The translations under genes were made by a program, and so were the position numbers. From Chthoniobacter flavus (GTDB taxonomy: Bacteria; Verrucomicrobiota; Verrucomicrobiia; Chthoniobacterales; Chthoniobacteraceae): a stretch of DNA of 43,187 nucleotides. The notes below the pieces were generated by a model. That model was not told where the DNA came from. It did not search any database and was given only the letters and a program-made list of their open reading frames with translations. The DNA lies in contig CAMAUX010000047.1 in the NCBI GenBank assembly GCA_945861435.1, positions 1 through 43,187 of the forward strand, written 5' to 3'. Below are positions 1-43,187 of this stretch, piece by piece (position 1 is the stretch's first letter; every line of letters begins with the position of its first letter).

Positions 1-1074
1 CAGAAGGGGCGCGAGGCGAGTCAGGCGCTGGCGAGTTTGCGTGAGACGGCGCCGACGTTTGCCGTGCGTGCGCAGGATGCACTGCGGGGCGGGCAGTTTG
101 AGGAGGCGCTGAAGGCGGCGACGTTCGCGGTGAAATTGGAGCCCAAGAACTCCGAGTACCATGCGCTGCGTGGCAATGCGCTGCAGGTCTTGGTGCGATG
201 GCCGGAGGCGGTGGAGGCGTATCGGACGGCGGTGCGACTTGGTGCGGATGCCGGAGTGAAGGACAATCTGGCTTTGACGGAGAGCTTGATGGTGCGCTCC
301 AAGAGCGAAGGTGAGGCCAAGGCAAAAGTGGCCTTGTTTGAAGCGCTCAATGGGCAGGGGCGTCAATCGGAGGCGCTGGAGTTTGGAAGGGAGTTGGGAG
401 ATTTTTGGAAGGATCGGAAGCGGGACATGAGCGTGTTGCCGGAGTTGGTGAAGCGGTTGGAGGCGAAGCTGCTGCCGGTGCCTGGGAGCAAGATTCGCAT
501 GAGCAAGACGGAGATGACCGTCGGGGAATGGAAGCTGTACCTGAAGGCGGATGGGCTTCCCGACTGGCAGCAGCCGTCCAAAGACTGGACACAGACGGAC
601 GAGCATCCCGTGGTGAGTGTGAGTTGGAATCGAGCGAAGGAGTTCTGCGAATGGCTGAGCGCGAAGACTGGTAAGCAGTGGCGTCTTCCGACGAATGCGG
701 AGTGGGAGGCTGCGGTGGGACCGACGAAATATCCGTGGGGGGATTATTACCCGCCGCACTGGGATGACGGGAATTACGCGGTGGGGGTGGATGGAAAAGA
801 GGATCCTGAAAAAGTGGGAGTGGACGGGATTCTGGGGACAGCGCCCGTGGGTTCATTCAAACCGAATGCTTTGGGTTTTTACGATTTGGGAGGCAACGTT
901 TGGGAATGGATGTGGGATGGACAGGATGAGAAAACAGGGAAACGGGTGTTCCGTGGCGGGGGCTGGGACGGCTTCGCGGAGGGCTGCGCGGTGGGGTACC
1001 GGATCTACTACTCCCCGGCCGGCAGCTACGGCGGCGGCTACGGGTTCCGGCTGGCTCTGAGTTCAGATCCCTGA
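1..1074 (+). CDS. TPR + formylglycine-enzyme-like (FGE-sulfatase/SUMF1) domain protein, 5' end outside the window
   Basis: The frame is open from base 1, so the TTG at 37 is only the first start-like codon in the window and the true start lies upstream. The first part (about bases 60-300) reads as TPR-like helices of the type ALRGGQFEEALKAA. From about base 470 the protein is an FGE-sulfatase (PF03781) domain, with VVSVSWNRAKEFCEWLS, WRLPTNAEWEAA, GFYDLGGNVWEWMWD and a terminal GFRLALSS. In the PVC group such domains often sit at the C-terminus of kinase or TPR proteins, so an upstream kinase domain is possible but unseen. True FGE activity is not shown: many members are non-catalytic C-type-lectin folds. 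Odd point: near the 3' end, presumed variable positions use NNC codons while the rest of the gene prefers G-ending codons (see findings). The family assignment is firm; the function is not. Confidence 0.88.
   Translation, partial: QKGREASQALASLRETAPTFAVRAQDALRGGQFEEALKAATFAVKLEPKNSEYHALRGNALQVLVRWPEAVEAYRTAVRLGADAGVKDNLALTESLMVRSKSEGEAKAKVALFEALNGQGRQSEALEFGRELGDFWKDRKRDMSVLPELVKRLEAKLLPVPGSKIRMSKTEMTVGEWKLYLKADGLPDWQQPSKDWTQTDEHPVVSVSWNRAKEFCEWLSAKTGKQWRLPTNAEWEAAVGPTKYPWGDYYPPHWDDGNYAVGVDGKEDPEKVGVDGILGTAPVGSFKPNALGFYDLGGNVWEWMWDGQDEKTGKRVFRGGGWDGFAEGCAVGYRIYYSPAGSYGGGYGFRLALSSDP
949..1050 (+). other. Candidate diversity-generating-retroelement variable region (VR)
   Basis: The last part of the FGE/C-type-lectin domain runs from RVF to the terminal GFR. 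Of the 13 codons at 1003-1041, 12 end in C (ATC, TAC, TAC, TCC, GCC, GGC, AGC, TAC, GGC, GGC, GGC, TAC); the exception is a CCG proline. All 12 can be derived from AAC or AGC by changing A only. Glycines at family-conserved positions use GGG (958, 994, 1042), whereas those at surface-loop positions use GGC (961, 970, 982, 1021, 1030-1038). DGRs mutate adenines of AAC-type codons in exactly this fold and position. No template repeat or reverse transcriptase is visible in the window, so this is an inference. Confidence 0.45.
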
Positions 1075-31776: not shown

Positions 31777-32055
31777 TCAGTGGCCGGCCTCGGTGTTTTT
31801 GCGTTGGTAGAAGGAGGATTCCTCCGGGGTCATCTCGCGGGCGAGGAGGACGCGGTGGCGTTTGCCGTCGGTCCAAAAGACGGAGAAGATGGGGCGTTCG
31901 GAGACGCTCTTGCCGAGGTTGAAGTAGCGGGCCTGCTGGTCGCCGTGGGCTTCTGGGAGGATGCGGAGACTGAAGGGGTCCTCGAAGGATTCCTCGATTT
32001 CCTTCGGGGTGATGGTGCGCAGGTCGAAGGGCGCGTCGAGCCAGTCGAACTCCAT
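31777..32055 (-). CDS. BrnT-like toxin of a type II toxin-antitoxin pair
   Basis: The protein has 92 residues: FDWLDAPFDLRTITPKEIEE, then FEDPF, RYFNLGKSVSERPIFSVFWT, DGKRHRVLLAREMTPEESSF. The order of the DP loop, the GK(S/T)-like strand, FSVFWT and ARxM resembles BrnT (PF04365) and related ribonuclease toxins, although the catalytic residues are not certain to match. The neighbour downstream is an RHH antitoxin. It begins two bases after the stop of the glyoxalase-like gene; GGAG lies about 10 bases before the ATG. The call is at family level. Confidence 0.65.
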   Translation of the reverse strand: MEFDWLDAPFDLRTITPKEIEESFEDPFSLRILPEAHGDQQARYFNLGKSVSERPIFSVFWTDGKRHRVLLAREMTPEESSFYQRKNTEAGH

Positions 32056-32057
32056 GG

Positions 32058-32438
32058 TCAGCTCCGCTGGATGAGCTCGACCTCGTAGCCTTCGGGGGCG
32101 TCAAGGAAGGCGATGAGGCTGCCGGAGCCGGTGCGGGTGGGGCCGTCGGAGAGGGGGTATCCAAGGCTCGCCGCGTGGGCGCTGAACGCCGCGAGGTCGC
32201 TTACCTCGAAGGCGAGGTGGGTGAGGTCGGGGCCGACTTGTACGGGACCCGAGGCGTCGAACTTGCAGATCTCGATGAGTTCGTCGCTGTGGGGGGCTTT
32301 GAAGAAGACCAGTTCCGAGCCGCGCGGGGAACGATGGCGCTGGACCTCCTCAAGGCCGAGGACTTCGCGGTAGAAGTGCACGGTTTTTTCAAGGTCGTGG
32401 ACCCGGTAACGGGTATGGAGAAGACGGGTCACCCTCAT
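32058..32438 (-). CDS. Glyoxalase I-like VOC-family protein
   Basis: The protein has 126 residues. Metal ligands of glyoxalase I are present: H8 (LLHTRYRVHDLEKTVHFY), E56 (ELIEICKF), H74 (DLTHLAFEV) and E121 (GYEVELIQ). This is the pattern of lactoylglutathione lyase (gloA, Ni/Zn type), which converts the hemithioacetal of methylglyoxal. A related VOC enzyme with another substrate cannot be excluded. It is the first gene of a minus-strand unit that continues with the toxin- and antitoxin-like genes, spacings 2 and 1 bases. Confidence 0.88.
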   Translation of the reverse strand: MRVTRLLHTRYRVHDLEKTVHFYREVLGLEEVQRHRSPRGSELVFFKAPHSDELIEICKFDASGPVQVGPDLTHLAFEVSDLAAFSAHAASLGYPLSDGPTRTGSGSLIAFLDAPEGYEVELIQRS

Positions 32439-32472
32439 TTCGGTTCTCGATTTGTGTGGGGCCGTTGTGTAG

Positions 32473-32513
32473 CCCCGAAAGGGGATCGGCCGGGACTGTC
32501 ATAGCTCCGGCCG
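32473..32513 (+). promoter_or_regulatory. Structured leader upstream of xylB
   Basis: CCCC-GAAA-GGGG (32473-32484), a GNRA-loop hairpin, is followed by CGGCCGG (32487-32493) pairing with CCGGCCG (32507-32513). It lies 31 bases before the xylB ATG, in the 106-base divergent spacer. It could regulate xylB or stabilise its mRNA. No known riboswitch core is evident. Confidence 0.35.
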
Positions 32514-32544
32514 GGGGAAATTCCCAAACCGAATTTTACAAAAC

Positions 32545-34044
32545 ATGATCGCCATCGGAATCGACAGCGGAACCCAGAGCACCAAGGCCATCGCCCTCGA
32601 CATTGAATCGGGTGCGATCCTCGCCTCCGCCTCCAGTGCCTACGGGCTGGTGGAGGGGCTGCCGCAGGGGCACATGGAGCAGGTGCCCCAGCACTGGATC
32701 GATGCAGTGGATACCACCGTCAAGGCCTGCCTGAGTCAGCTCGGCCCCCGCAAGGACGACGTGGTGGCAATCGGGGTCAGTGGCCAGCAGCATGGGTTCG
32801 TGCCGCTGGACCGGCGGGGGAGCGTGATCCGCCCGGCCAAGCTCTGGTGCGACACCTCCACCCTCGACCAATGCAGGCAGTTTGAGGCCGAGTTTGGCGG
32901 GGCGGAGGAACTCATCGGGCTGGCGGGTAACGCCATGCTGCCGGGGTACACCGCGCCCAAGATCCTCTGGCTCAAGCAGAACGAGCCCGGCAACTTCAAC
33001 GCCCTGGCCTCCGTGTTGCTGCCGCACGACTACATCAACTTTCACCTCACGGGTGAGCGCGCCATGGAATACGGCGATGCCTCCGGCACTGGTCTGATGG
33101 ATGTGCGCACGCGTCAGTGGTCCAAGCCTCTGATGGACTTTATCGACCCCAAGCTTGAGGAGACGCTTCCTGCGCCAGGTAGTTCCCGGCGCGCTCTGGG
33201 CCTGCTGCGCGACAGCTTGCGCGAGGCATGGGGTTTGAAGAAAAGCCCGGTGGTCAGCGCCGGTGGTGGCGATAACATGATGGGCGCCATCGGTACGGGG
33301 AACGTGCAGCCCGGGGTGGTGACTGTGAGCCTCGGGACCTCGGGCACCGTGTACGCATGCTCTTCAGAACCGGTGGTGGATCCGGCAGGCGAGGTGGCGG
33401 CGTTCTGCGACAGCACGGACCGCTGGATGCCTTTGGTGTGCACGATGAATGTCACCGTGGCCACTGAGCAGGTGCGCAAACTTTTTGGGTGGGATCACAT
33501 CCGCTTGGAGGCCGAGGTCGCCAGCGCACCGATCGGGGCGTCCGGGATGCTCTTCCTTCCTTACCTCAACGGCGAGCGCACCCCGAACCTCCCCACTGGC
33601 AGCGGTGTTTTTCACGGTCTGACGACCGAGAACATGGCTCCCGCTCACATGGCGCGCGCGGTCATGGAGGGCGTCACCCTTGGCCTCGGCTACGGGCTTG
33701 CCCGCTTCCGTGAACTGGGTATCGCGCCGACTGAGATCCGCCTCACCGGCGGGGGAAGCAAGAGCGGTATCTGGCGTCAGATTTGTGCAGATGTCTTTGG
33801 CGTGCCGACCGTGTGCCTCGCATCTGCGGAGGGCGCGGCGCTCGGGGCTGCGATTCAGGGGGCCTACGCAGCGATGCACGCGAATGGGCAGAGCACCACC
33901 TTCCGCGAGCTCTGCGGGCGTCTGGTGCAACTCGATTCCACGACCCGGGCGGAGCCCCGTGTGGCGGCCCGCGATCTCTACGTGCAGTCCCTGTCGCGTC
34001 AGACTGACTTGACGCGCCGCCTGCATACGGGTGGGTTGCTCTAA
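32545..34044 (+). CDS. xylB: Xylulokinase
   Basis: The protein has 499 residues. FGGY-kinase signatures: N-terminal IGIDSGTQSTKAIALDIESG (phosphate 1 loop), SGQQHGFVPLD, and the catalytic Asp region SAGGGDNMMGAIGTG with VSLGTSGTVY; the C-terminal ADP site is LTGGGSKSGIWRQI. The MEQVPQHWIDAV segment is the xylulokinase-type variation. It phosphorylates D-xylulose for the pentose phosphate pathway. No xylose isomerase is near, so D-xylulose must come from elsewhere. The gene starts at ATG 32545 with no Shine-Dalgarno sequence and lies in a C-rich stretch unlike the left part of the window. Confidence 0.95.
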   Translation: MIAIGIDSGTQSTKAIALDIESGAILASASSAYGLVEGLPQGHMEQVPQHWIDAVDTTVKACLSQLGPRKDDVVAIGVSGQQHGFVPLDRRGSVIRPAKLWCDTSTLDQCRQFEAEFGGAEELIGLAGNAMLPGYTAPKILWLKQNEPGNFNALASVLLPHDYINFHLTGERAMEYGDASGTGLMDVRTRQWSKPLMDFIDPKLEETLPAPGSSRRALGLLRDSLREAWGLKKSPVVSAGGGDNMMGAIGTGNVQPGVVTVSLGTSGTVYACSSEPVVDPAGEVAAFCDSTDRWMPLVCTMNVTVATEQVRKLFGWDHIRLEAEVASAPIGASGMLFLPYLNGERTPNLPTGSGVFHGLTTENMAPAHMARAVMEGVTLGLGYGLARFRELGIAPTEIRLTGGGSKSGIWRQICADVFGVPTVCLASAEGAALGAAIQGAYAAMHANGQSTTFRELCGRLVQLDSTTRAEPRVAARDLYVQSLSRQTDLTRRLHTGGLL

Positions 34045-34081
34045 GCCCCCGGACGAGCGTTCCTTAAACTGAAAAGCATCT

Positions 34082-34822
34082 ATGAAAAAATCGGATTCCA
34101 CCCGGACGAATCAACCAGCCGGGAAGCCTTCTGCTCCCCAGCCTACACCGATGAAAAACTGGATGCTCCCGACGATGGCCGCCCTTGTGGTTGCCCTCTG
34201 CGTGGGTGTGGGCTTGTTCCTTCAGTCGAGCCCCGTCTCGGTGGACCCGTCGCCGGTGGTGAAGCCCGAGAGCGCCCCCGCCCCCCAGCCTCCTGCGGTC
34301 GAACCCGAGCCCGAAGCGGTTCCCAAACCCTTGAGTGGCAAGAGTTCGGTGGATGCAGGCAAGGGCAAGGCGAAGCCCGCTCCCGCACCGCTCGCACCAT
34401 GGGAGATCAAGATCGACCAACTGCTCACCTCGAACCTTGGCGAAACTGAGACGGCGCAAAACATCATTAACATGGTGCCCACGCTCCCTCCCGAAGGACA
34501 GGTGGGCGCGATTCTGCATGCGACGAATCTGCTGGTCGACAAGGAGTACCAGCGGCTCATGCCTCTGGTCCGCAACCTGCGCCTTCCCCAAGAGGTCCAC
34601 GACGTCCTCATGACCGACCTCATGAACCGGGAAAACAAGGTCAAGCTCCCGGTCCTCCTTGAAATGGCCCGCATGGTTGGGCATCCGCATCAGGAGGAGG
34701 CTCAGACCGATCTCCAGATTTTCCTCGATGCAGACTACGGCGCGGACTGGAACAAGTGGGGCACCGCCCTCAACGAGTTTCTGAAGAAGGACGCGGCCGA
34801 GACCCAGCCCGCGGCGAACTGA
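34082..34822 (+). CDS. Membrane-anchored hypothetical protein
   Basis: The protein has 246 residues. After a polar N-terminus there is one hydrophobic segment (WMLPTMAALVVALCVGVGLFL), then a proline-rich linker (VKPESAPAPQPPAVEPEPE), and a helical C-terminal part (QNIINMVPTLPPEGQVGAIL, VHDVLMTDLMNRENKVKLPV). The globular part is predicted outside the cytoplasm. I do not recognise a family. It overlaps the ubiX start by one base (TGATG), so it is translationally coupled to ubiX. No function can be assigned beyond its membrane location. Confidence 0.72.
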   Translation: MKKSDSTRTNQPAGKPSAPQPTPMKNWMLPTMAALVVALCVGVGLFLQSSPVSVDPSPVVKPESAPAPQPPAVEPEPEAVPKPLSGKSSVDAGKGKAKPAPAPLAPWEIKIDQLLTSNLGETETAQNIINMVPTLPPEGQVGAILHATNLLVDKEYQRLMPLVRNLRLPQEVHDVLMTDLMNRENKVKLPVLLEMARMVGHPHQEEAQTDLQIFLDADYGADWNKWGTALNEFLKKDAAETQPAAN

Positions 34823-35448
34823 TGAGGCTGGTCGTTGCCGCCACCGGCGCCAGCGGGGCGATCTATTTCCAGCGGTTGCTGGAACAGGTGGACTGCGCCG
34901 CTCACGAGGTCCATGTGGTCCTGAGCGCTTATGCGCGCCAAGTCATTCGAGAGGAACTCGGGACATGGACCCCCCCGGCCGGCGTTCATCTCCACGGCGA
35001 CAAGACCATGCATGTGCCGTTTGTGAGCGGCAGCGCCCCCTTCGATGCCATGGTGGTGGTGCCGTGTTCCATGGGCACCCTCGCCCGCATCGCGGCTGGC
35101 ATCGCGGACACCACGATCCTGCGCGCAGCCGATGTGTTTTTGAAGGAACGCCGCAAGCTCGTGGTGGTTCCGCGCGAGACCCCGTGGAACCTGATCCACG
35201 CCCGCAATGTCGTCACCCTCATGGAGGCTGGTGCACTCGTGCTCCCCGCTTCCCCTTCCTTTTACAGCAAGCCCGCGAACCTCAACGAACTGGCTGACAC
35301 CGTAGTCTCCAGAATCCTTTCCCAGCTCGGTCTTCCGGACCCCAACGGCTTCCGCTGGTGCGGTTCCGGTTCTTTGGGGGCTGGGGGGGGGGCGAGGGAT
35401 TCCGGCGGAGAGGCAGGCTCTGGCTCTGCAGGGAACGAGTTGGAATGA
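34822..35448 (+). CDS. ubiX: Flavin prenyltransferase UbiX
   Basis: The protein has 208 residues from ATG 34822; a frame upstream overlaps the hypothetical gene and is not used. The N-terminal FMN loop is VVAATGASGAIYFQRLLEQ. The motif VVVPCSMGTLARIAAGIADT and the later VVVPRETPWNLIHARN are the UbiX/Pad1 signatures. It makes prenylated FMN for UbiD-type decarboxylases in ubiquinone or menaquinone routes and aromatic degradation. No ubiD is in the window. The C-terminus has an unusual Gly/Ser-rich tail of about 25 residues. The stop overlaps the DUF374 start by ATGA. Confidence 0.93.
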   Translation: MRLVVAATGASGAIYFQRLLEQVDCAAHEVHVVLSAYARQVIREELGTWTPPAGVHLHGDKTMHVPFVSGSAPFDAMVVVPCSMGTLARIAAGIADTTILRAADVFLKERRKLVVVPRETPWNLIHARNVVTLMEAGALVLPASPSFYSKPANLNELADTVVSRILSQLGLPDPNGFRWCGSGSLGAGGGARDSGGEAGSGSAGNELE

Positions 35449-36128
35449 GCCGTCCACTGAAGGTGTGGTTGGTGGGCCTGGTGGGTTACGTGCTCATGCG
35501 GGTGTGGTGCGCGAGCATCCGGCTTCGCATCGTGGACCCGCATGGCACCCTCCGTGCCATTGCGCCGGGGACTCCCTCCATCTGGGCTTTCTGGCACAAC
35601 CGCCTCTTCCTGACGGCCCACATGTTCCGCAGCTTCTTCCCCCGCCACCGCGGCGCCGCCCTCGCCAGCGTGAGCAAGGATGGCGAGGTCATCTCCGCGC
35701 TGATCGAACGCTTCGGCGTGCAAGCCGTTCGTGGGTCCAGTTCGCGCCGGGGTGCCGCGGCGCTTGTGGCAATGCGGCGTTCCCTGCTCTCGGGCCATGT
35801 GGTGGCGCTTACCCCGGATGGTCCCCGCGGCCCCGTCCACCGGGTCAACCCCGGCGTGGTCAAACTCGCCCAAGTCACCGGCATCCCGATCGTCCCCCTT
35901 CATCTGCGCATGGAAAGTTTCTGGGCCCTGCGAAGCTGGGACGGGTTCCGGCTGCCGGTGCCATTTTCCCGGGTGGACGTGGTGTTCGGCGCGGCTCATG
36001 TCGTGGCCGCCACGTCGACCGAAGAGGAGTTTGAAGCCGAGCGTCTCCGTTTTGAGCAGGTGCTGCGGGCGCCCGAAGTGGAGTCCGGGTCGACGCAGGC
36101 TCCGGGCATTTCCGCCGAGGTGGTTTGA
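35445..36128 (+). CDS. DUF374-family lysophospholipid acyltransferase-like protein
   Basis: The protein has 227 residues from ATG 35445 (MSRPLKVWLVGLVGYVLMRV), starting with a membrane segment. The family core is IWAFWHNRLFLTAHMF, ASVSKDGEVISALIERFG, VRGSSSRRGAAALVAM, and LTPDGPRGPVHRVNPGVVKL. The histidine in FWHNR may act like that of other acyltransferases. DUF374 proteins are linked to lipid A/Kdo-lipid or phospholipid acylation in Gram-negative envelopes; the substrate is not resolved. It is translationally coupled to ubiX by a 4-base overlap. The C-terminal 25 residues look disordered. Confidence 0.88.
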   Translation: MSRPLKVWLVGLVGYVLMRVWCASIRLRIVDPHGTLRAIAPGTPSIWAFWHNRLFLTAHMFRSFFPRHRGAALASVSKDGEVISALIERFGVQAVRGSSSRRGAAALVAMRRSLLSGHVVALTPDGPRGPVHRVNPGVVKLAQVTGIPIVPLHLRMESFWALRSWDGFRLPVPFSRVDVVFGAAHVVAATSTEEEFEAERLRFEQVLRAPEVESGSTQAPGISAEVV

Positions 36129-36139
36129 GTAATTCCCGC

Positions 36140-36170
36140 TTGTCAACAGCGGTGGGCGTCGGGATAGGAT
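36140..36170 (+). promoter_or_regulatory. Candidate promoter of tRNA-Gly
   Basis: TTGTCA (36140-36145) serves as -35. A -10 lies in GATAGGATAT (36163-36172): GATAGG at 17 bases or TAGGAT at 19 bases spacing. It precedes the tRNA by about 14 bases, so a short leader is removed by processing. Confidence 0.45.
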
Positions 36171-36183
36171 ATGGCTGTTTTCT

Positions 36184-36257
36184 GCGGGTATAGCTTAGTG
36201 GTAAAGCTCCAGCCTTCCAAGCTGGCTAGGAGGGTTCGATTCCCTCTACCCGCTCCA
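36184..36257 (+). tRNA. tRNA-Gly (anticodon TCC), CCA encoded
   Basis: Acceptor arm GCGGGTA/TACCCGC; D arm GCTTAGTGGTAAAGC; anticodon arm CCAGC-CTTCCAA-GCTGG with anticodon TCC (reads GGA and GGG codons); T arm GAGGG-TTCGATT-CCCTC. Discriminator T is followed by an encoded CCA at 36255-36257. All helices are perfectly paired. An antisense ORF reading KMERVEGIEPS over the 3' half is the usual tRNA shadow. Confidence 0.97.
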
Positions 36258-36264
36258 TCTTTCC

Positions 36265-36291
36265 AAAAACCCCTCCTCGCGAGGGGTTTTT
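36265..36291 (+). terminator. Terminator after tRNA-Gly
   Basis: AAAAACCCCTC (36265-36275) pairs with GAGGGGTTTTT (36281-36291) around loop CTCGC, eleven base pairs. The stem ends in five T, followed by GATTTTATG. The distance from the tRNA 3' end is 7 bases, so it ends a monocistronic tRNA transcript. Confidence 0.88.
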
Positions 36292-37198
36292 GATTTTATG
36301 GGGGTCTCGCAGGCAGCCGGAAATGGCTGGAGTGAGAAAAGAAGTGAGAAAACCTGCACCGATCTCCACCCTCATCCATGGTCGTTTGCGGGTGTGCTTA
36401 GGGGGCTCACGGTCCCCCCGGTTGAGATGCCCTACAAAAATCCTGTCTCTGGCGTTCCCGAGCCATGCGTGTGGCAATCGATGGGAAAAGCGCCGGTGAA
36501 GGGGCCTGCGAGCTCTGCAAAAACAAAGCGTGCGTTTGAGCAGGGTGTTTAAGCGTGGGCGTCAGGAATAGCCGGAGGGGCGACTGTCACGGATGTCACG
36601 ATTGTCACAGGGGGTTTAGGCAAGACTGTGATTTGCTCGCCCCAGCACGGTGGTGAGGCTCTGGGCGACGACTTCACTGCCGTGCTGTTTGGTTCGAATC
36701 GGCGCAACAACCTCCTTCCGCAGGAGGTCCGCCAAGAAACGCACGGGGCCGGAGGTCATGCTCCGTGGGGTGGAATGTCTCCCAGGATTTTCCGGCCATG
36801 CACCCGCCAGTGGCTCGCAAGGAAAGTCCTCGCTGTCCCTGCGCATTGCCCAGTGAGGTCGGGTTCCGGCGCGTGCTGGAGTTAAGCCGCGTTGCGGCGA
36901 TCGGCCGTAATCTTGACTACGCCACACCACTCCCATGCCTCCGCGGGCGGTGGCGTTGGATCAAACCCCATCACCGGCGCGCCGTCATGCGAGGAGTGGG
37001 CGCTGCTCCGAGGCTGCGGCGCGGTGGCGGTCCGCGACACGGCTCCTCAAGGCTGGTCCTGAGGGTGGGGTAGGGGCGCGGAACAAGTTTGATCGGGTGC
37101 CTCCGCTCCTCCACTTCCTCCGGGCTTTTTACGGGAAAATCCTTATGCACCTGACGCCCGCTTCCTACCTTGACTCCTTGATCCAGCGTTTGCACTAG
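36292..37198. other. Gene-poor stretch of about 0.9 kb after tRNA-Gly
   Basis: No frame shows a recognisable family. Short frames on both strands (for example a 106-residue minus-strand frame at 36616-36936) have mixed composition and could be decayed genes. A triple 9-base repeat lies at 36585-36611. The position after a tRNA gene fits an old integration site, but no integrase or flanking direct repeat of the tRNA 3' end was found by eye. Confidence 0.4.
36585..36611 (+). repeat. Three 9-base iterons TGTCACNNN
   Basis: TGTCACGGA, TGTCACGAT and TGTCACAGG follow each other without gap, with TGTCAC at 36585, 36594 and 36603. Period 9 puts the sites a little under one helical turn apart. Such iterons can be protein-binding sites, or a coding remnant with a three-residue repeat (VTD, VTI, VTG in one frame). 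Confidence 0.6.
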
Positions 37199-40100
37199 AT
37201 GGAGCCCCGCCGGCTCTGGGTGTCTTCGTTGCGGGCCTTATCAGAAGGGGCGTCTTTTGCAGGCGATACGCGCCGGGCGCGCAGAGGTGAGAGTGCGGGG
37301 CCGCGTCGCTGGGTGGGGCTGCTGGCGCTCATGGCCGGCGCGTGGATGGGTCTGCTGCAAGGAGCCGCGCATGCGCAGGTGTTCGTGCTGCAGGACGTGG
37401 ACTGGGCGCAACCCGTGTCGACCACCGCCACCTATCTGCCCCTCCTTGCGGGTGGATCGCCTGCCGGGAGCACGCTCACAAAGAACACCGGCGCGGCATC
37501 CGGCTGGAACGCTGACGCGTGCAGCTGGAGGGCGATCCGCGGCGATGGCTATGTGCAGTTCCGCTTCGGGCAGGTGAATAAGAACGCAGTGGCTGGACTG
37601 GCCACGGCCAATAGCGACGCCACCGCCCTCAGTATCGATTACGGCATCACTGCCAAGAGCAACGGCACGTTTGTCATCTCCGAAAAGGGAGTCGCGCTGA
37701 GCGCCGCAGTTCCCTACTCGGCGACGGATTTGTTCGAGGTCCGGCGCACGGGAAGCTCCGTGGGTTATTTCCGCAATGGCTTCCCGATCGCGCTGCTGAG
37801 CACCGCGGTTTCGGCTCGCTCGGTGGCTGCGCTCTACGTGGACACCTCCCTCTACGAGGCCGGCGCCGCCATTGTGGGTTGCAAGTACGCGGGGCTCTCA
37901 GAGCTGGAGGATGTGGTGTGGGAAAACCTCAGCGGCACGGGCGGGGCGGCCGGCTACAACGCAACCGCGGACGCGGGCTCGACCTTTTCAAAGACGGCGG
38001 TGGCCGGTTGGGTGGGGGCCTCCGGGGCGATGCGCCTTCAGGGCAATGGGTCGCTGGTTTTCCGGTTCTCCAAGAACAACTGCCAGGCGGCCGTGGGGCT
38101 GAGCGCAGAGGGGTTCAGCGGCGCGACACCGCACACCCAGTCGGCCCAGATCGACTACGCCATTGAGGCCACCACGACCGCAGGGGTCTGCCGCGTGCTT
38201 GAGCGGGGGTTGGCCAGGTGGAGCGGGTCTTACACGGTGTCGGACGTGTTTCGCATCGAGCGCACGGACTATGGCGTGGCGTATTTTAAGAACGACGTGT
38301 GGGTTTACACCTCGGCGACTCCCGTGGCGGCCTCCTCGCTTGTGGTGGAGACGTTCCTTTACTCAGCCAGCGCCGCCATCAACAGCTGCCGGGCCACGGC
38401 GTTGCGCACCCTCGAGAAGGTGTCGTGGAACGCCGCCGCAGGGCTCACAGCCGATGTCGGCTCGGGTCGCAGCCGCCTTGTCGCGACGGTGCCAAACGCC
38501 CGCACCACCAGCGCCAAGGTGCTGCCCGCAAACGGACTGCTGCGCTTTGCGTTCGACCAGGCCACGGCCGGGGTGAAGGTGGCGCTCACCGGGTCCGGCA
38601 CCCAGTTCGCGATTCAGACGCTGGCAGGCGGTCTCGTGCAGGTGAGCGAGGGCGGGGTGTTGGTGCCCGGCACCACCCGAGCGTTCACGCCCGGCGATGT
38701 GTTGGGCCTCCGGCGCAGGGTTTCCAGCGGGGTCGAGTCCATCCAGTACTTCGTCAGCGGCACGGTGTTTTACGAGCACCCGCTTCCCGCTGCGGGCGAA
38801 CTGCGGGCGGAGGCCTCCTTCGCGGCACCCGCCTCGATCTCACATTGCGAATGGATCGGCGTGCCCGTGGATGTGGTATGGCGCGATCAGGCCGGGGTCG
38901 GATTCACCCGGACCCAGCCGGGCGCAGGCAGCACGCTTGCCAAAACCACCGCCACCACCGCATGGGATGCCGGCGCCGCGGCCAGCGATGGTCTCGCGCC
39001 CGGGCGCGATGGTTGGTGGCAGTTCGCGGCTGGTGCCACCGGCAAGGCCGCTTTTGCCGGACTGGCGGAGTCCGATCCCGACAGGAACTACACAGGGATG
39101 CGTTGCGCTCTCTATCTGCTGAGCGGTGGAACGACCTTCGAGCTGCGCTTCAACAATGTGAAGGTGGGGGGCGGTACGTATGCCCTCGGCGATGTGTTCC
39201 GCTTCCAGCGCAAAGCTGGCGTGGTGACGCTCTGGCGCAACGGCGCGCTGGTACCCACAGGCACCGCAAGCATGACACTCCCCGGGGCGCTCCTTCTCGA
39301 CACCTCCCTCTCCGGGCAGGGAGCCACCCTGCGCAATGCCGTGTTTTACACCGCCGCGGCTGATGTGAACGTCAACGGCATCGAGGACGAATGGGAACTG
39401 CGCTGGCTCGGCTCCCTCCTCCCCATGGGGCCCGTGGGTAACTTCGATCAGGACGCCTACAGCGACCTCGAGGAGTACCTGCGTGGAAGCAATCCCGCGG
39501 ACTACTTCAATGGCGAGGCCCCCGTGGTCAGCATCACCAGCGGCACCCCGCAGACCTCCACGGCCGGCGCCTTCGCCCCCGATGCGCTGGGCGTGGCGGT
39601 CAGCTTCGGAGGCCCCAGAGTGCAGGGCGCACCCGTGCGCTTCCAAGCCGATGCTTCCGGCGGATGGCTCGCGTCCGGCAACTCGTCCACAGCGTCCCGC
39701 GCGAAATCCCTGCTCTCATTCACCTCGGCCGCGGATGGGATCGCGAGCGCCTATTTCCTGCAGCCGAGTGCGCAGGGGATCAGCAGCACCGTCTTCGCCT
39801 CAGTGGGCGCTGCAACTCCGCTCGTCTTCAGGCTGTATACTCACGAGTTGCTCGGCTTCTGGCGCTTTAATGAAACGCCGGACACGGCCGCCTTCGCCTC
39901 CGACAGCTCCACCAACGCGCAGACCGCCATCCTCCAAGGCGGCGCGGGTCGCATGCCCGGTTTCAGCGGCCAAAGCATGATGCTCGAAGCTCCCGGTGGC
40001 CGCGCCCTCAAACTCTCGGGAGCCGGCCAGTATGCCGTGGTGTCCCCCTCCGCTCGCACCAAAGGGGTGCTTGCCAGCGCTCCGTTGAGCATCGCCGCAT

Positions 40101-43100
40101 GGGTGGTGCCTGATCCTGCAGCACCCCTTGCCGCCCTCACCGACGAATACCCGCTGGTGTCCGCATCCAACAACAACGGTCAGGGGTTCTGCTTCTCTCT
40201 CAAAGGCGGCCCCGCCAACGGGCTCTCCATCCTCCTCAACCCCGGTGCGGGGCAGGTGGGCAGGGAGCTCAATCCGCTCCTGCAGCAGTCTGCGTTGCTG
40301 TGCGACGGCCGCCCCCACCTCGTCGTCTTCACCCGCGATGCCGACAACCAGTGTGCCCTCTACATCGACGGCCGCGATGTCACCACGCCTGCCGCCGGCG
40401 GCACGCCCGTGCGTGTAGGTGCATGGCCCATCGAATCTCTGCTGCTCGGTGCCAATGCCGCGAAGAACCGCTTCTTCAGGGGCGTTCTCGAGGACGTCCG
40501 CATCCTTGGCAGCTGCTATCGCCCAGACGAGGTCCTCGCCCTCTGCGACTCCGATGGCGACGGTCTCCCAGACTGGTGGGAACTCACTCACGCGCCCAAC
40601 CTCTCCGCACTCTCCGCGGCCGGCGACTTCGATGGCGACGGCATCGCGGACCTCCAGGAATACCGCGGTCTCACCTCACCCACGGACTACTACAACGGCC
40701 AGCTGCCCACGCTGAGCGTGCTCTCCGGCGACAACCAGGCCGGCCCCGCCAGCAGCCCGCTTCCCGCACCCCTGAAGATCCGGGTCACACGACTGAGCGG
40801 TGCCACACAGATCCCGCTAGCCAATGCCCCGCTGAGCTTCAGCGTCGCCTCTGGTGGGGGCCGGCTCCTGAAGGCGGATGGCAGCGCACTCGACGGGGCC
40901 ATCCAGCGCACCGGCGCCGACGGCTGCGCCTCCGTGCTTTACGTGCAGGGCCCCCTCGGCGCCACCCCCTCCGCCATCCGCGTCACCGCCAGCCTGAACG
41001 CATCTCCCACTCAGTCGGTGTCCGCCACCTTCAACGCCTCCACCAACGCTCTTGTCGGCCGCTGGCAGTTTGATAAATCCTCCAACCGCGGTGCTGACTC
41101 CTCCGGCACGGGCTATGGCCTTGACGCCTCAACCCCCCTGTGGAGCCCGGCTTTCGGAGCGTTCACCGCCGCAGGCGTCGACCCATCCACCGCGTGCAGC
41201 CTGAGCCTCAACAACGCGGGCGGCGTCTTCTGCGCACCGGCCGGCACCCGCCCGTGGACCGTTGCATTCTGGCTCAAGCTCAACAACCTCCCGCCGGCAG
41301 ACACCGCCTCGGTTGTTCTCTCCAACGAGGCCGGCGGCCCGGCCGGCTTCCGCCTCCTTGCGCGCTCCACCACGAATGCGGCGGCTGAGCTCGCTCTGGT
41401 CTCCCCCGGATTGAGCCCCGCCTCCGGCCTCACCGCAAAGATCACCCTCGGACAGTGGCACCATGTGGCTCTGATCGTAGGGACCGGCACCTCCCCCGTG
41501 GTGCAGCTCCTCCTCAACGGCGTCGCCGCCGCCACAGGTACGGGCACCCTCGCCACCAGCGTCAGCAGTCCCGTCTGCTTCGGAGCGGGGATCGCCGGGG
41601 ATCCACAAAGCCTCCCGCTCCACGGCTGCCTTGCGGACCTCCGCGTCTACGCCGGCACGCTGGCTGCCGCGGAACTCCAGGCACTCAGCGACTGCGACAC
41701 CGATGGCAGCGGCCTCTCCGACCGCTGGGAGGAAAAGTACTTCGGCGCCCGCGGCCAGGACCCCGCCGCCGACCCCGATGGCGATGGCCGCACCAACCTC
41801 CAGGAGCAGGCGGCGGGTTCCGATCCGCGCGACTTCTTCAACGGCGCCGCCGCACAGCTGCGCGTGGTTTCCGGCGATGACCAGTTCGGCGAACCCGGTG
41901 CGCGCTTCGCCCAGAATTTCACGGTGGAGGTGACCGACCCGGAGGGACGTCCCCTCTTCAACGCCCCTGTGACTTTCAGCGCGTCTGGGAGGGGGAAAAT
42001 ATCAGACGGTTTTGTGGCGCAGGTCTCCGGCTCACCTCAGTGGTCGGGCAGCACCCTCGTGCGCACACTCAACCAAGGCGGGCGCTCCCTCGCCTCAGTG
42101 GCTCTCAAGGCCCCGGCCGAGGGACGCAACTCTGTGTTCACCGCCTCCATCGCCGGCTCCCTCCCCGTGGCGCGGCAGATCACGACACGCGCCGCCGGCC
42201 TCGCCTCCTGGCTGCGACTCGATGAACCCGTCGCAGAGCCCGGCGCCGACGGACTCCCCGCCCCGGTGGAGGCGCGCGATGCCAGCGGCTCGGGCAGGCC
42301 GGGCTCCATCAGCGCGCGCACGGGGCGCAGCCCCAGCTTCGACGCCTCAGGCGCCCTCCTTTTCACAAAACCTCAGGACGCCCTTTGCATCCCCAACCCC
42401 ACCACCGACATCCTCCCGGGCGGGGGCCGCCCCTTCACCCTCTCCTTCTGGATCTCCCCGGAACCATGGGCCATGAACGTGCCCCGCCTCATGGGCAATG
42501 CGCAGGACGGGCTCAGTGGCTTCACCCTTGGTATGGATCAGGGGGTTCTCACCCTCTCCTCCCTCCAGTCAGGCGGCACTCTGGGGCCCGTGCGCGCCGC
42601 CGCCCCGCTTGAGCCCCGGCGCTGGTCGTCCATCACCCTCACCTTCGACTCCTCCTCCACCCTCAGGCTCTACATCAACGGGGCTCTCTCAGCCACCGGC
42701 ACCGGCCGGATCCTCTCCAACACCCAGCCCATCCTCTTTGCCGGCGTGCAATCAGGGGAGCCGGCGGGCCCAAACGACGGGTTCCGGGGCCGCATCGACG
42801 AGGTCGCCATCCGCCGCGGTGTCGCGCTCGATGCCGAAAGCATCCGCCTCGATTACGACAGCGACGGCGACGGCCTCCCCAATGCGTGGGAAAAAGCCCT
42901 CGGCCTGGACCCCACAAACCCCGCCGATGCCTGCAAGCGCGTCGACGGGGCCGGGCGCACCGCCCTCGAGTTCTACAACGCGGGCGATGTGCCGCCCGCG
43001 CCCGGCGCGGCTGGGCCCGGCTCGCCTGGAGTTGCCCTCAGCTGGCAGTCGGAACGGGCCCCGCTCCAGACCGAGCCGCTGGTCTCCCTCAAGGTGCAGA

Positions 43101-43187
43101 CCCGATGGTTGCAGAGCGATGTGCTGGGTTATTCCGGGTTCATCGTGCCCCCGGGCCAAGCCGTTGCCAACCGTTACAAGACCTACC
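37199..43187 (+). CDS. Giant secreted LamG/Ig-like repeat protein, 3' end outside the window
   Basis: One open frame of 1996 codons runs from ATG 37199 (directly after an in-frame TAG) to the window edge with no stop. A signal peptide (VGLLALMAGAWMGLLQGAAHA, mature start near 37379) follows a long basic N-region. Then come four related modules of about 150 residues (37379-39360) with VVW...GSTLAKT...W...AGA, IDYAI, DVFRI.R...V.YFKN and LYVDTSLY. Three super-modules follow, each an Asp-rich calcium-type linker (such as SDGDGLPDWWE, DFDGDGIADLQEY), an Ig-like domain and a LamG/concanavalin-like domain (about 39848-40540, 41050-41688, 42195-42845). It is probably a cell-surface adhesin or the front part of a larger RHS-like or toxin-type protein. 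Codons are C-rich, unlike genes to the left. Confidence 0.88.
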   Translation, partial: MEPRRLWVSSLRALSEGASFAGDTRRARRGESAGPRRWVGLLALMAGAWMGLLQGAAHAQVFVLQDVDWAQPVSTTATYLPLLAGGSPAGSTLTKNTGAASGWNADACSWRAIRGDGYVQFRFGQVNKNAVAGLATANSDATALSIDYGITAKSNGTFVISEKGVALSAAVPYSATDLFEVRRTGSSVGYFRNGFPIALLSTAVSARSVAALYVDTSLYEAGAAIVGCKYAGLSELEDVVWENLSGTGGAAGYNATADAGSTFSKTAVAGWVGASGAMRLQGNGSLVFRFSKNNCQAAVGLSAEGFSGATPHTQSAQIDYAIEATTTAGVCRVLERGLARWSGSYTVSDVFRIERTDYGVAYFKNDVWVYTSATPVAASSLVVETFLYSASAAINSCRATALRTLEKVSWNAAAGLTADVGSGRSRLVATVPNARTTSAKVLPANGLLRFAFDQATAGVKVALTGSGTQFAIQTLAGGLVQVSEGGVLVPGTTRAFTPGDVLGLRRRVSSGVESIQYFVSGTVFYEHPLPAAGELRAEASFAAPASISHCEWIGVPVDVVWRDQAGVGFTRTQPGAGSTLAKTTATTAWDAGAAASDGLAPGRDGWWQFAAGATGKAAFAGLAESDPDRNYTGMRCALYLLSGGTTFELRFNNVKVGGGTYALGDVFRFQRKAGVVTLWRNGALVPTGTASMTLPGALLLDTSLSGQGATLRNAVFYTAAADVNVNGIEDEWELRWLGSLLPMGPVGNFDQDAYSDLEEYLRGSNPADYFNGEAPVVSITSGTPQTSTAGAFAPDALGVAVSFGGPRVQGAPVRFQADASGGWLASGNSSTASRAKSLLSFTSAADGIASAYFLQPSAQGISSTVFASVGAATPLVFRLYTHELLGFWRFNETPDTAAFASDSSTNAQTAILQGGAGRMPGFSGQSMMLEAPGGRALKLSGAGQYAVVSPSARTKGVLASAPLSIAAWVVPDPAAPLAALTDEYPLVSASNNNGQGFCFSLKGGPANGLSILLNPGAGQVGRELNPLLQQSALLCDGRPHLVVFTRDADNQCALYIDGRDVTTPAAGGTPVRVGAWPIESLLLGANAAKNRFFRGVLEDVRILGSCYRPDEVLALCDSDGDGLPDWWELTHAPNLSALSAAGDFDGDGIADLQEYRGLTSPTDYYNGQLPTLSVLSGDNQAGPASSPLPAPLKIRVTRLSGATQIPLANAPLSFSVASGGGRLLKADGSALDGAIQRTGADGCASVLYVQGPLGATPSAIRVTASLNASPTQSVSATFNASTNALVGRWQFDKSSNRGADSSGTGYGLDASTPLWSPAFGAFTAAGVDPSTACSLSLNNAGGVFCAPAGTRPWTVAFWLKLNNLPPADTASVVLSNEAGGPAGFRLLARSTTNAAAELALVSPGLSPASGLTAKITLGQWHHVALIVGTGTSPVVQLLLNGVAAATGTGTLATSVSSPVCFGAGIAGDPQSLPLHGCLADLRVYAGTLAAAELQALSDCDTDGSGLSDRWEEKYFGARGQDPAADPDGDGRTNLQEQAAGSDPRDFFNGAAAQLRVVSGDDQFGEPGARFAQNFTVEVTDPEGRPLFNAPVTFSASGRGKISDGFVAQVSGSPQWSGSTLVRTLNQGGRSLASVALKAPAEGRNSVFTASIAGSLPVARQITTRAAGLASWLRLDEPVAEPGADGLPAPVEARDASGSGRPGSISARTGRSPSFDASGALLFTKPQDALCIPNPTTDILPGGGRPFTLSFWISPEPWAMNVPRLMGNAQDGLSGFTLGMDQGVLTLSSLQSGGTLGPVRAAAPLEPRRWSSITLTFDSSSTLRLYINGALSATGTGRILSNTQPILFAGVQSGEPAGPNDGFRGRIDEVAIRRGVALDAESIRLDYDSDGDGLPNAWEKALGLDPTNPADACKRVDGAGRTALEFYNAGDVPPAPGAAGPGSPGVALSWQSERAPLQTEPLVSLKVQTRWLQSDVLGYSGFIVPPGQAVANRYKTY

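Follow-up and report, generated by a model that had tools for sequence, protein, structure and literature searches.

Among the diversity-generating retroelements (DGRs) described so far, that of Treponema denticola offers one of the closest parallels to the gene family reported here. As the accessible part of its description presents it (PMC4891356), its target TvpA (PDB 2y3c) is an FGE/C-type-lectin protein with a variable region (VR) at the C terminus and an HRDC accessory gene; there are several remote targets, and targets survive in isolates without the core DGR. Our family resembles the T. denticola system in these respects, the HRDC gene being represented beside our targets by remnants. 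The same part of that source gives two to seven DGR targets per isolate and names eight for SP23, whereas we find 15 in one assembly, some of them with kinase, caspase or SAM N-termini, and did not find the reverse transcriptase (RT) or the template there. The DGRs of Thiohalocapsa PB-PSB1, in the portion of the account available (PMC10907252), are alike in that loci are incomplete or remote, diversification occurs in trans, target C-termini have been recombined onto different N-terminal domains, and conflict-system domains are involved. They differ in comprising nine loci, some of which include RT and template, in being accompanied by population data, and in the ties of the targets to NACHT and ternary systems; our genome belongs to a different phylum and has one VR tail family, and its RT was not found.

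Two further comparisons concern the architecture of the locus. The DGR of Bordetella phage BPP-1 has a comparable invariant 3' stretch (the initiation-of-mutagenic-homing sequence, IMH) and a hairpin after the stop codon. As far as PMC3240598 sets these elements out, phage DGR hairpins or cruciforms have a GC-rich stem of 7–10 bp and a four-base GRNA loop, as in BPP-1, where homing needs the hairpin; the loop in our family has three bases and is seen in five of the 15 targets. Closer at hand, cassettes in two congeners (G001, contig 273; G003, contig 71) share the FGE VR layout and VRs with A-limited changes, and run in the order target, HRDC-type gene, RT, template, with a further target downstream in G003. 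The tails of these templates differ from the GFRLALSS tail of our family, and thus they are not its template. Links between FGE-type DGRs and conflict systems have already been published (PMC7159879, PMC10907252), and Verrucomicrobiota are named among DGR hosts or groups (PMC10907252, PMC8144416), in the parts of these papers that are accessible; our literature search found no paper on the present FGE VR family. In its workings the variable region resembles an established kind of system, the DGR, and it counts among the targets of that kind.

The window analysed here is the whole of contig C47, 43,187 nucleotides long, from an assembly (G000) of 5.35 Mb in 105 contigs that is 96% complete. Its first gene lies on the forward strand at positions 1–1074, with the 5' end lost at the contig start, and is translated into 357 residues up to the stop at 1074. 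TPR repeats, with matches slightly below the Pfam curated cut-offs, are followed by an FGE-sulfatase domain of the C-type-lectin fold family (PF03781, residues 166–352, E 2.4e-34). A sister gene on contig C76 (4033–6519, reverse strand; L133) encodes a Ser/Thr kinase with Pkinase at residues 118–355, FGE at 634–823 and an FGE end of like kind, and in the C48 sister, kinase-like sequence occurs in a different frame and a frame break lies ahead of the FGE part. By analogy with the C76 sister, from which the kinase start is taken, the window gene is probably a kinase-TPR-FGE receptor. At the far end of the window, GC skew ranges from +0.08 to -0.16 over positions 32001–43187, as against +0.20 to +0.33 in the preceding 32 kb, and the first 667 residues of an ORF at 37199–43186, open at the contig end, gave no Pfam match.

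For the last 74 residues of the window protein, TvpA (2y3c) is the best match among solved structures (E 1.8e-7), with RVFRGGGW...CAVGYR...GFRLAL aligned to RVLRGGSW...CAVGER...GFRLAC; when the whole protein is used, the FGE-type enzymes PvdO, SUMF2 and SUMF1 outrank TvpA (E 7.5e-9). An AlphaFold model of the FGE part, built from a two-row alignment, had a mean pLDDT of 36 and was left unused, so the fold call is a sequence-based one. The variable residues of TvpA are located at the end of the protein, the part with which the end of the window protein aligns, and we infer that a ligand-binding face is what varies.

Attention was drawn to this gene by its codons. The preliminary description had proposed a DGR target from a run of C-ending codons at 1003–1041, and direct reading confirms 12 of 13 (ATC TAC TAC TCC CCG GCC GGC AGC TAC GGC GGC GGC TAC). 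Its remark that the gene elsewhere prefers G-ending codons also holds: the 316 upstream body codons include 181 that end in G and 46 that end in C, and no 13 consecutive codons of the body have more than five C endings (simple binomial P ~1e-9). The accompanying argument that this is not general bias stands for this G3-rich gene but not for the genome at large, as 66 of 6,771 13-codon stretches in ten other ORFs of the window have at least 12 C endings, all of them in three genes with a C3 of 0.52–0.61. Since C3-rich genes of the window contain such runs too, the codon count by itself is suggestive only, and the decisive check lies with the paralogues.

This genome carries an FGE domain together with a 3' end of the window type in 15 genes or gene remnants, counted from a DNA search, a tail pattern and a match on C18. 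They are on contigs C47, C48, C91, C93, C50, C25, C30, C62 (two), C76, C11, C44, C22, C18 and C97, each with an FGE-sulfatase match in Pfam. The DNA search with positions 949–1074 hit 12 places besides itself at E <=5e-8, and a 25-mer tail pattern gave 14 matches (ten exact, two with one mismatch, two with three), while the reversed control pattern gave none. Contig starts truncate the C47 and C91 targets, and those on C48 (L128) and C11 (L134) have a frame break between the N-terminal part and FGE, through decay or assembly error. Besides the kinase, N-terminal parts include caspase (both C62 targets), SAM (C50, C30, C22) and an Ig-like domain (C44); FGE is the sole Pfam domain in the scanned part of the C93, C25, C18 and C97 targets.

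A codon alignment of 16 homologues, together with sister comparison, places the VR of the window gene at 949–1041, with variable NNC codons set among fixed ones. In the 12-row core of this alignment (C18, C97, C62b and G003_C195 omitted), 14 NNC codons are variable at bases 1 and 2, and the third base is C in 165 of 168 cases. Over the 28 columns formed by codon positions 1 and 2, A is present in all 28, at least three bases in 27 and all four in 17, the 14 codons having been chosen from the same alignment that supplied the counts; 16 amino acids are represented across them. The fixed codons in between are nearly invariant, mostly G-ending and conserved at the DNA level. The earlier view that fixed glycines are GGG does not extend to every one of them, as the fixed glycine at 955–957 is GGC in 11 of the 12 core paralogues. 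Similarly, 1003–1041 stands as the main variable block, but the VR begins earlier, at TTC 949, with further variable codons at 967, 970, 973, 982 and 997. The three at 967–975 (GAC GGC TTC) correspond to AAC-type codons in the templates of relatives. Length also varies: the VR is one codon longer in C47, where the block 1003–1041 exceeds that of C48 by a codon aligned within 1030–1038, and five codons longer in C93. Across all 15 VRs of the genome, nine keep 14 of 14 NNC codons and three keep 13; C18 (9/14), C97 (10/14) and C62b (9/14) are decayed.

Sister pairs separate the VR sharply from the gene body. Identities were taken from the best 25 pairs, and seven pairs were tested statistically by codon position. 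In C47/C48, the nearest sister pair among these 25, the FGE bodies are identical at 427 of 449 bases and the VRs at 65 of 84, after which the next 34 bases are 34/34 and then 60/60 identical. The corresponding body and VR values are 420/446 and 62/87 for C50/C30, and 324/356 and 67/87 for C91/C25. At codon positions 1 and 2, differences are concentrated in the VR: 19/60 against 8/296 in the body for C47/C48 (p 1.1e-10), 26/62 against 19/294 for C50/C30 (p 2.8e-11) and 20/62 against 15/234 for C91/C25 (p 4.8e-7). At position 3 the VR is at least as conserved as the body, with VR plus tail against body at 0/41 versus 14/148 for C47/C48 (p 0.043), 0/42 versus 17/117 for C91/C25 (p 0.0068) and 4/41 versus 44/145 for C47/C76 (p 0.008); for C50/C30 the values are 1/42 versus 7/147 (p 0.69). 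C25/C44 (p 2.9e-5 at positions 1 and 2, p 0.025 at position 3) and C48/C76 (p 6.4e-6 and p 0.003) complete the set with the decayed pair C62a/C62b, in which the pattern is absent (position 3, 14/42 versus 49/147, p 1). The frozen third base fits rewriting from an AAC template, as selection for diversity would leave the synonymous base free.

Downstream of the VR, positions 1042–1074 form an invariant tail, GGGTTCCGGCTGGCTCTGAGTTCAG(A/T)TCCCTGA, defined by tail pattern matches and pairwise identity, which ends at the stop codon and likely acts as the IMH stretch. In six compared pairs whose FGE bodies share 31–49% amino acid identity, 31–33 of the 33 tail bases are identical. A conserved non-coding 3' flank common to other targets follows at 1075–1180, again recognized by pairwise identity: the C47 flank matches C48 at 109/109 and C76 at 107/107 bases, and both C62 targets at 84–86%. 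The similarity fades near +107, and identity is at background level from +121 to +270. The flanks of 13 of the 15 targets fall into two types, type 1 with five (C47, C48, C76 and both C62 targets) and type 2 with eight, and within a type the first 95 bases after the stop are 86–100% identical (nine pairs). A hairpin scan found a perfect 7-bp stem with a three-base loop (CTTTCGC GGA GCGAAAG) at 1091–1107, which in comparison with the phage elements (PMC3240598) is possibly a DGR hairpin. Such a 7-bp stem and three-base loop follows the stop at a distance of 17 or 21 bases in the five type 1 targets, and the other ten have no perfect stem of at least 6 bp after the stop. Copies of the type 1 flank also occur without a preceding VR, at C76:18563–18663 and, in part, at C48:40535–40585, as if the flank spreads alone.

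The template and RT that go with such VRs are present in relatives. An AAC-rich template inferred from the paralogues was searched in 38 genomes and matched nine, including our own. In six relatives, two of the same genus (G001, G003), two of the same family (G012, G020) and two of the same order (G032, G033), template repeats stand beside RTs that were found independently with PF00078. The weak matches in G027 and G011 are not accompanied by a listed RT. Five of the RTs were aligned (that of G033 was left out): four have 44–58% identity to the first, and the DGR-type motif IG(S/N)LxSQ is common to all five. An HRDC-type gene directly precedes the RT in G003, G012, G020 and G032, Pfam having been run on the G003 protein, and a similar ORF does so in G001. 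The G032 locus (L101:83–1438) has its template repeat within the RT open frame, and the end of the RT ORF is an FGE-like segment recognized by Pfam.

Template and target in these relatives differ mostly where the template has A. Mismatches at template A and at other bases number 25 and 1 in G001, 16 and 3 and 22 and 3 in the two G003 pairs, 18 and 4 in G012, 23 and 3 in G032, and 24 and 4 in G033. By region, the six template-target pairs have 108 mismatches at A against 2 elsewhere in the core, 17 against 5 on the 5' side of the core, and 3 against 11 in the tail. G020 contributes no row, as its template came without a VR in the 6 kb read, and a second G012 row of 39 bases, all tail, with 1 mismatch at A and 7 elsewhere, is excluded from the core count.

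Together, the NNC-limited variation among paralogues, the templates beside RTs in relatives, the A-limited changes, remnants of the accessory gene and the TvpA match bear out the original DGR reading. We conclude, at a probability of roughly 0.93, that the 3' end of a TPR-FGE receptor gene, one of 15 such loci in the genome, holds a DGR variable region at positions 949–1041. As in known DGRs, a DGR reverse transcriptase would copy a template RNA rich in AAC, making errors at template A, and the resulting cDNA would take the place of the VR ahead of the invariant tail (1042–1074). Changes would then fall largely on the first two bases of AAC-type codons and leave the frame intact. The template of this family should have AAC-type codons where the 14 variable codons stand, and then a GGGTTCCGGCTGGCTCTGAG-like tail. 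The 15 targets are taken as trans targets because no template is seen adjoining them. That the same mechanism produced the variation in this genome is suggested by the VR family, its A-type pattern, the excess divergence of the VR, and the template and RT of congeners.

The engine itself was not found in the assembly. A DGR RT was sought with PF00078 and an RT profile; the former gave three matches, which we classified by eye on translations as retron-like (C42) and as group II type (C43, and C58, where a fragment lies at the end of the contig), while the latter matched C43 (E 6.9e-22) and C42 (5.6e-5) only, with nothing at 1e-30. No IG..SQ motif was seen in the C43 and C42 RTs, and the C58 piece stops short of the motif position; on these assignments, group II intron type for C43 and C58 and retron-like for C42, we rejected the RTs of this genome as drivers. 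The retron-like RT domain (C42:17734–18282; L002) is part of a 933-residue open frame with a long N-terminal part. A template was sought by DNA search, tail pattern, inferred template and AAC pattern, which returned VRs and scraps only: the C18 match is a decayed target, and those on C15 (108123–108203) and C26 (39721–39783) are likely relic scraps of target tails and flanks. The preliminary description had noted no template or RT in the window, in agreement with these searches, which cover contig C47. It had also treated a genome holding neither an A-rich template nor a DGR RT as contrary to its proposal; neither was found in the 5.35 Mb assembly, a result that, by the letter, goes against it but is outweighed by the evidence from paralogues and relatives.

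Several observations bear on where the engine is. A remnant of the HRDC accessory gene lies downstream of the C93 target (C93:7712–7891; the N-terminal 60 residues matched, then cut off, E 4.3e-9), and a broken, weaker piece downstream of the C50 target (C50:10420–10491, E 0.019); a third HRDC match falls within a 652-residue frame on C42. Given the two remnants beside targets, cassettes were probably present at these places in the past. The cassettes of three of the six relatives are on contigs of only 3.2–3.6 kb, which makes loss from the bin a real possibility. A family member with an 88% complete assembly, G042, is in a similar position: it has seven VR-type matches (L118–L124) with the related tail GFRV-A/V-LSSVP, and no DGR RT at 1e-30 and no template were found in it. 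One of its proteins (L120) has two FGE-like ends in tandem. The exact tail pattern occurs in eight stretches among the genome contigs of 84,980 species; one is on contig 195 of the congener G003 (L143), and in the other seven no more than a short segment around the tail matches. We favour, with some reserve, the view that RT and template are present in the organism but absent from the assembly or bin.

The main alternative to loss from the bin is loss from the genome: the serving DGR would be gone from the lineage, and the VRs, recent relics, would now be inherited and reshuffled by recombination. The RT and template missing from the assembly, the HRDC remnants adjoining two targets, the decayed VRs of C18, C97 and C62b and the likely scraps on C15 and C26 all agree with this, and so do the T. 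denticola isolates that retain target remnants without the core DGR, in the accessible part of that report (PMC4891356). Against it, nine of the 15 VRs still have all 14 NNC codons even though sister bodies differ at third positions (C91/C25 and C47/C76, not C50/C30 or C62a/C62b), which implies that rewriting was late relative to body divergence, and cassettes on such short contigs as those of three relatives are easily missed by a bin. We regard loss from the lineage as a serious but clearly less probable explanation than loss from the bin.

Another issue is the puzzling combination, across targets, of a near-identical tail and roughly 100 conserved bases of 3' flank with differing VR lengths in C47 and C93. 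Identity reaching some 100 bases past the stop exceeds what retrohoming alone should copy, and thus counts against a plain DGR account, while the length differences mean that one template is insufficient. Exchange of modules between genes, as described for Thiohalocapsa in the available portion of PMC10907252, may explain both. In a more far-reaching version, which we hold to be improbable, VR, tail and the flank of about 100 bases would be a mobile recognition module grafted onto unrelated kinase, caspase, SAM and secreted-protein genes, giving up to 15 hypervariable sensors with shared binding-site chemistry and different outputs, rewritten by an RT and template outside the main chromosome.

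A related proposal places the acting RT and template on a phage or plasmid, an extrachromosomal element outside the bin. Both G000 and G042 have many VRs and yielded neither component, and IMG/VR contigs carry relatives of the RT with identity of up to 57%, some with AAC-rich template-like stretches. The RT profile marked 56 loci in viral contigs; at four of them (L171, L172, L173, L176) the template-like stretch is AAC-rich but the match stops before the tail, and L189, L221 and L223 gave short matches. However, two tail patterns had no exact match in the viral contigs, and the inferred template had no match at 1e-5 in the phage and plasmid records searched. A mobile source is an outside chance.

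Gene conversion among FGE paralogues alone, with no retroelement, is very unlikely. The likeness of the tails (31–33/33) and of the first 95 flank bases within a type, in genes whose bodies have diverged, indicates that exchange does occur, but conversion could not give rise to all four bases at codon positions 1 and 2 while position 3 stays fixed as C, nor could it yield the A-limited template-target pairs of the congeners. Codon bias or chance can be dismissed: although C-ending runs exist in C3-rich genes of the window, C endings are few in the body of this one (46/316, at most 5/13), and the pattern recurs at matching codons in the paralogues.

If the DGR reading is correct, the family would consist of sensors in which a single variable binding face serves several outputs, as the domain architectures suggest. 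It adds a large repertoire of DGR targets for a Verrucomicrobiota (Spartobacteria-like) lineage, in which a single variable binding tail is combined with a kinase, with caspases and SAM proteins, and with proteins that look secreted. Patterns among paralogues can reveal DGR targets where an assembly is without RT and template, and surveys that start from the RT would therefore miss such repertoires. The proposal that bacteria run many hypervariable sensors via DGRs thereby becomes testable within a single genome.
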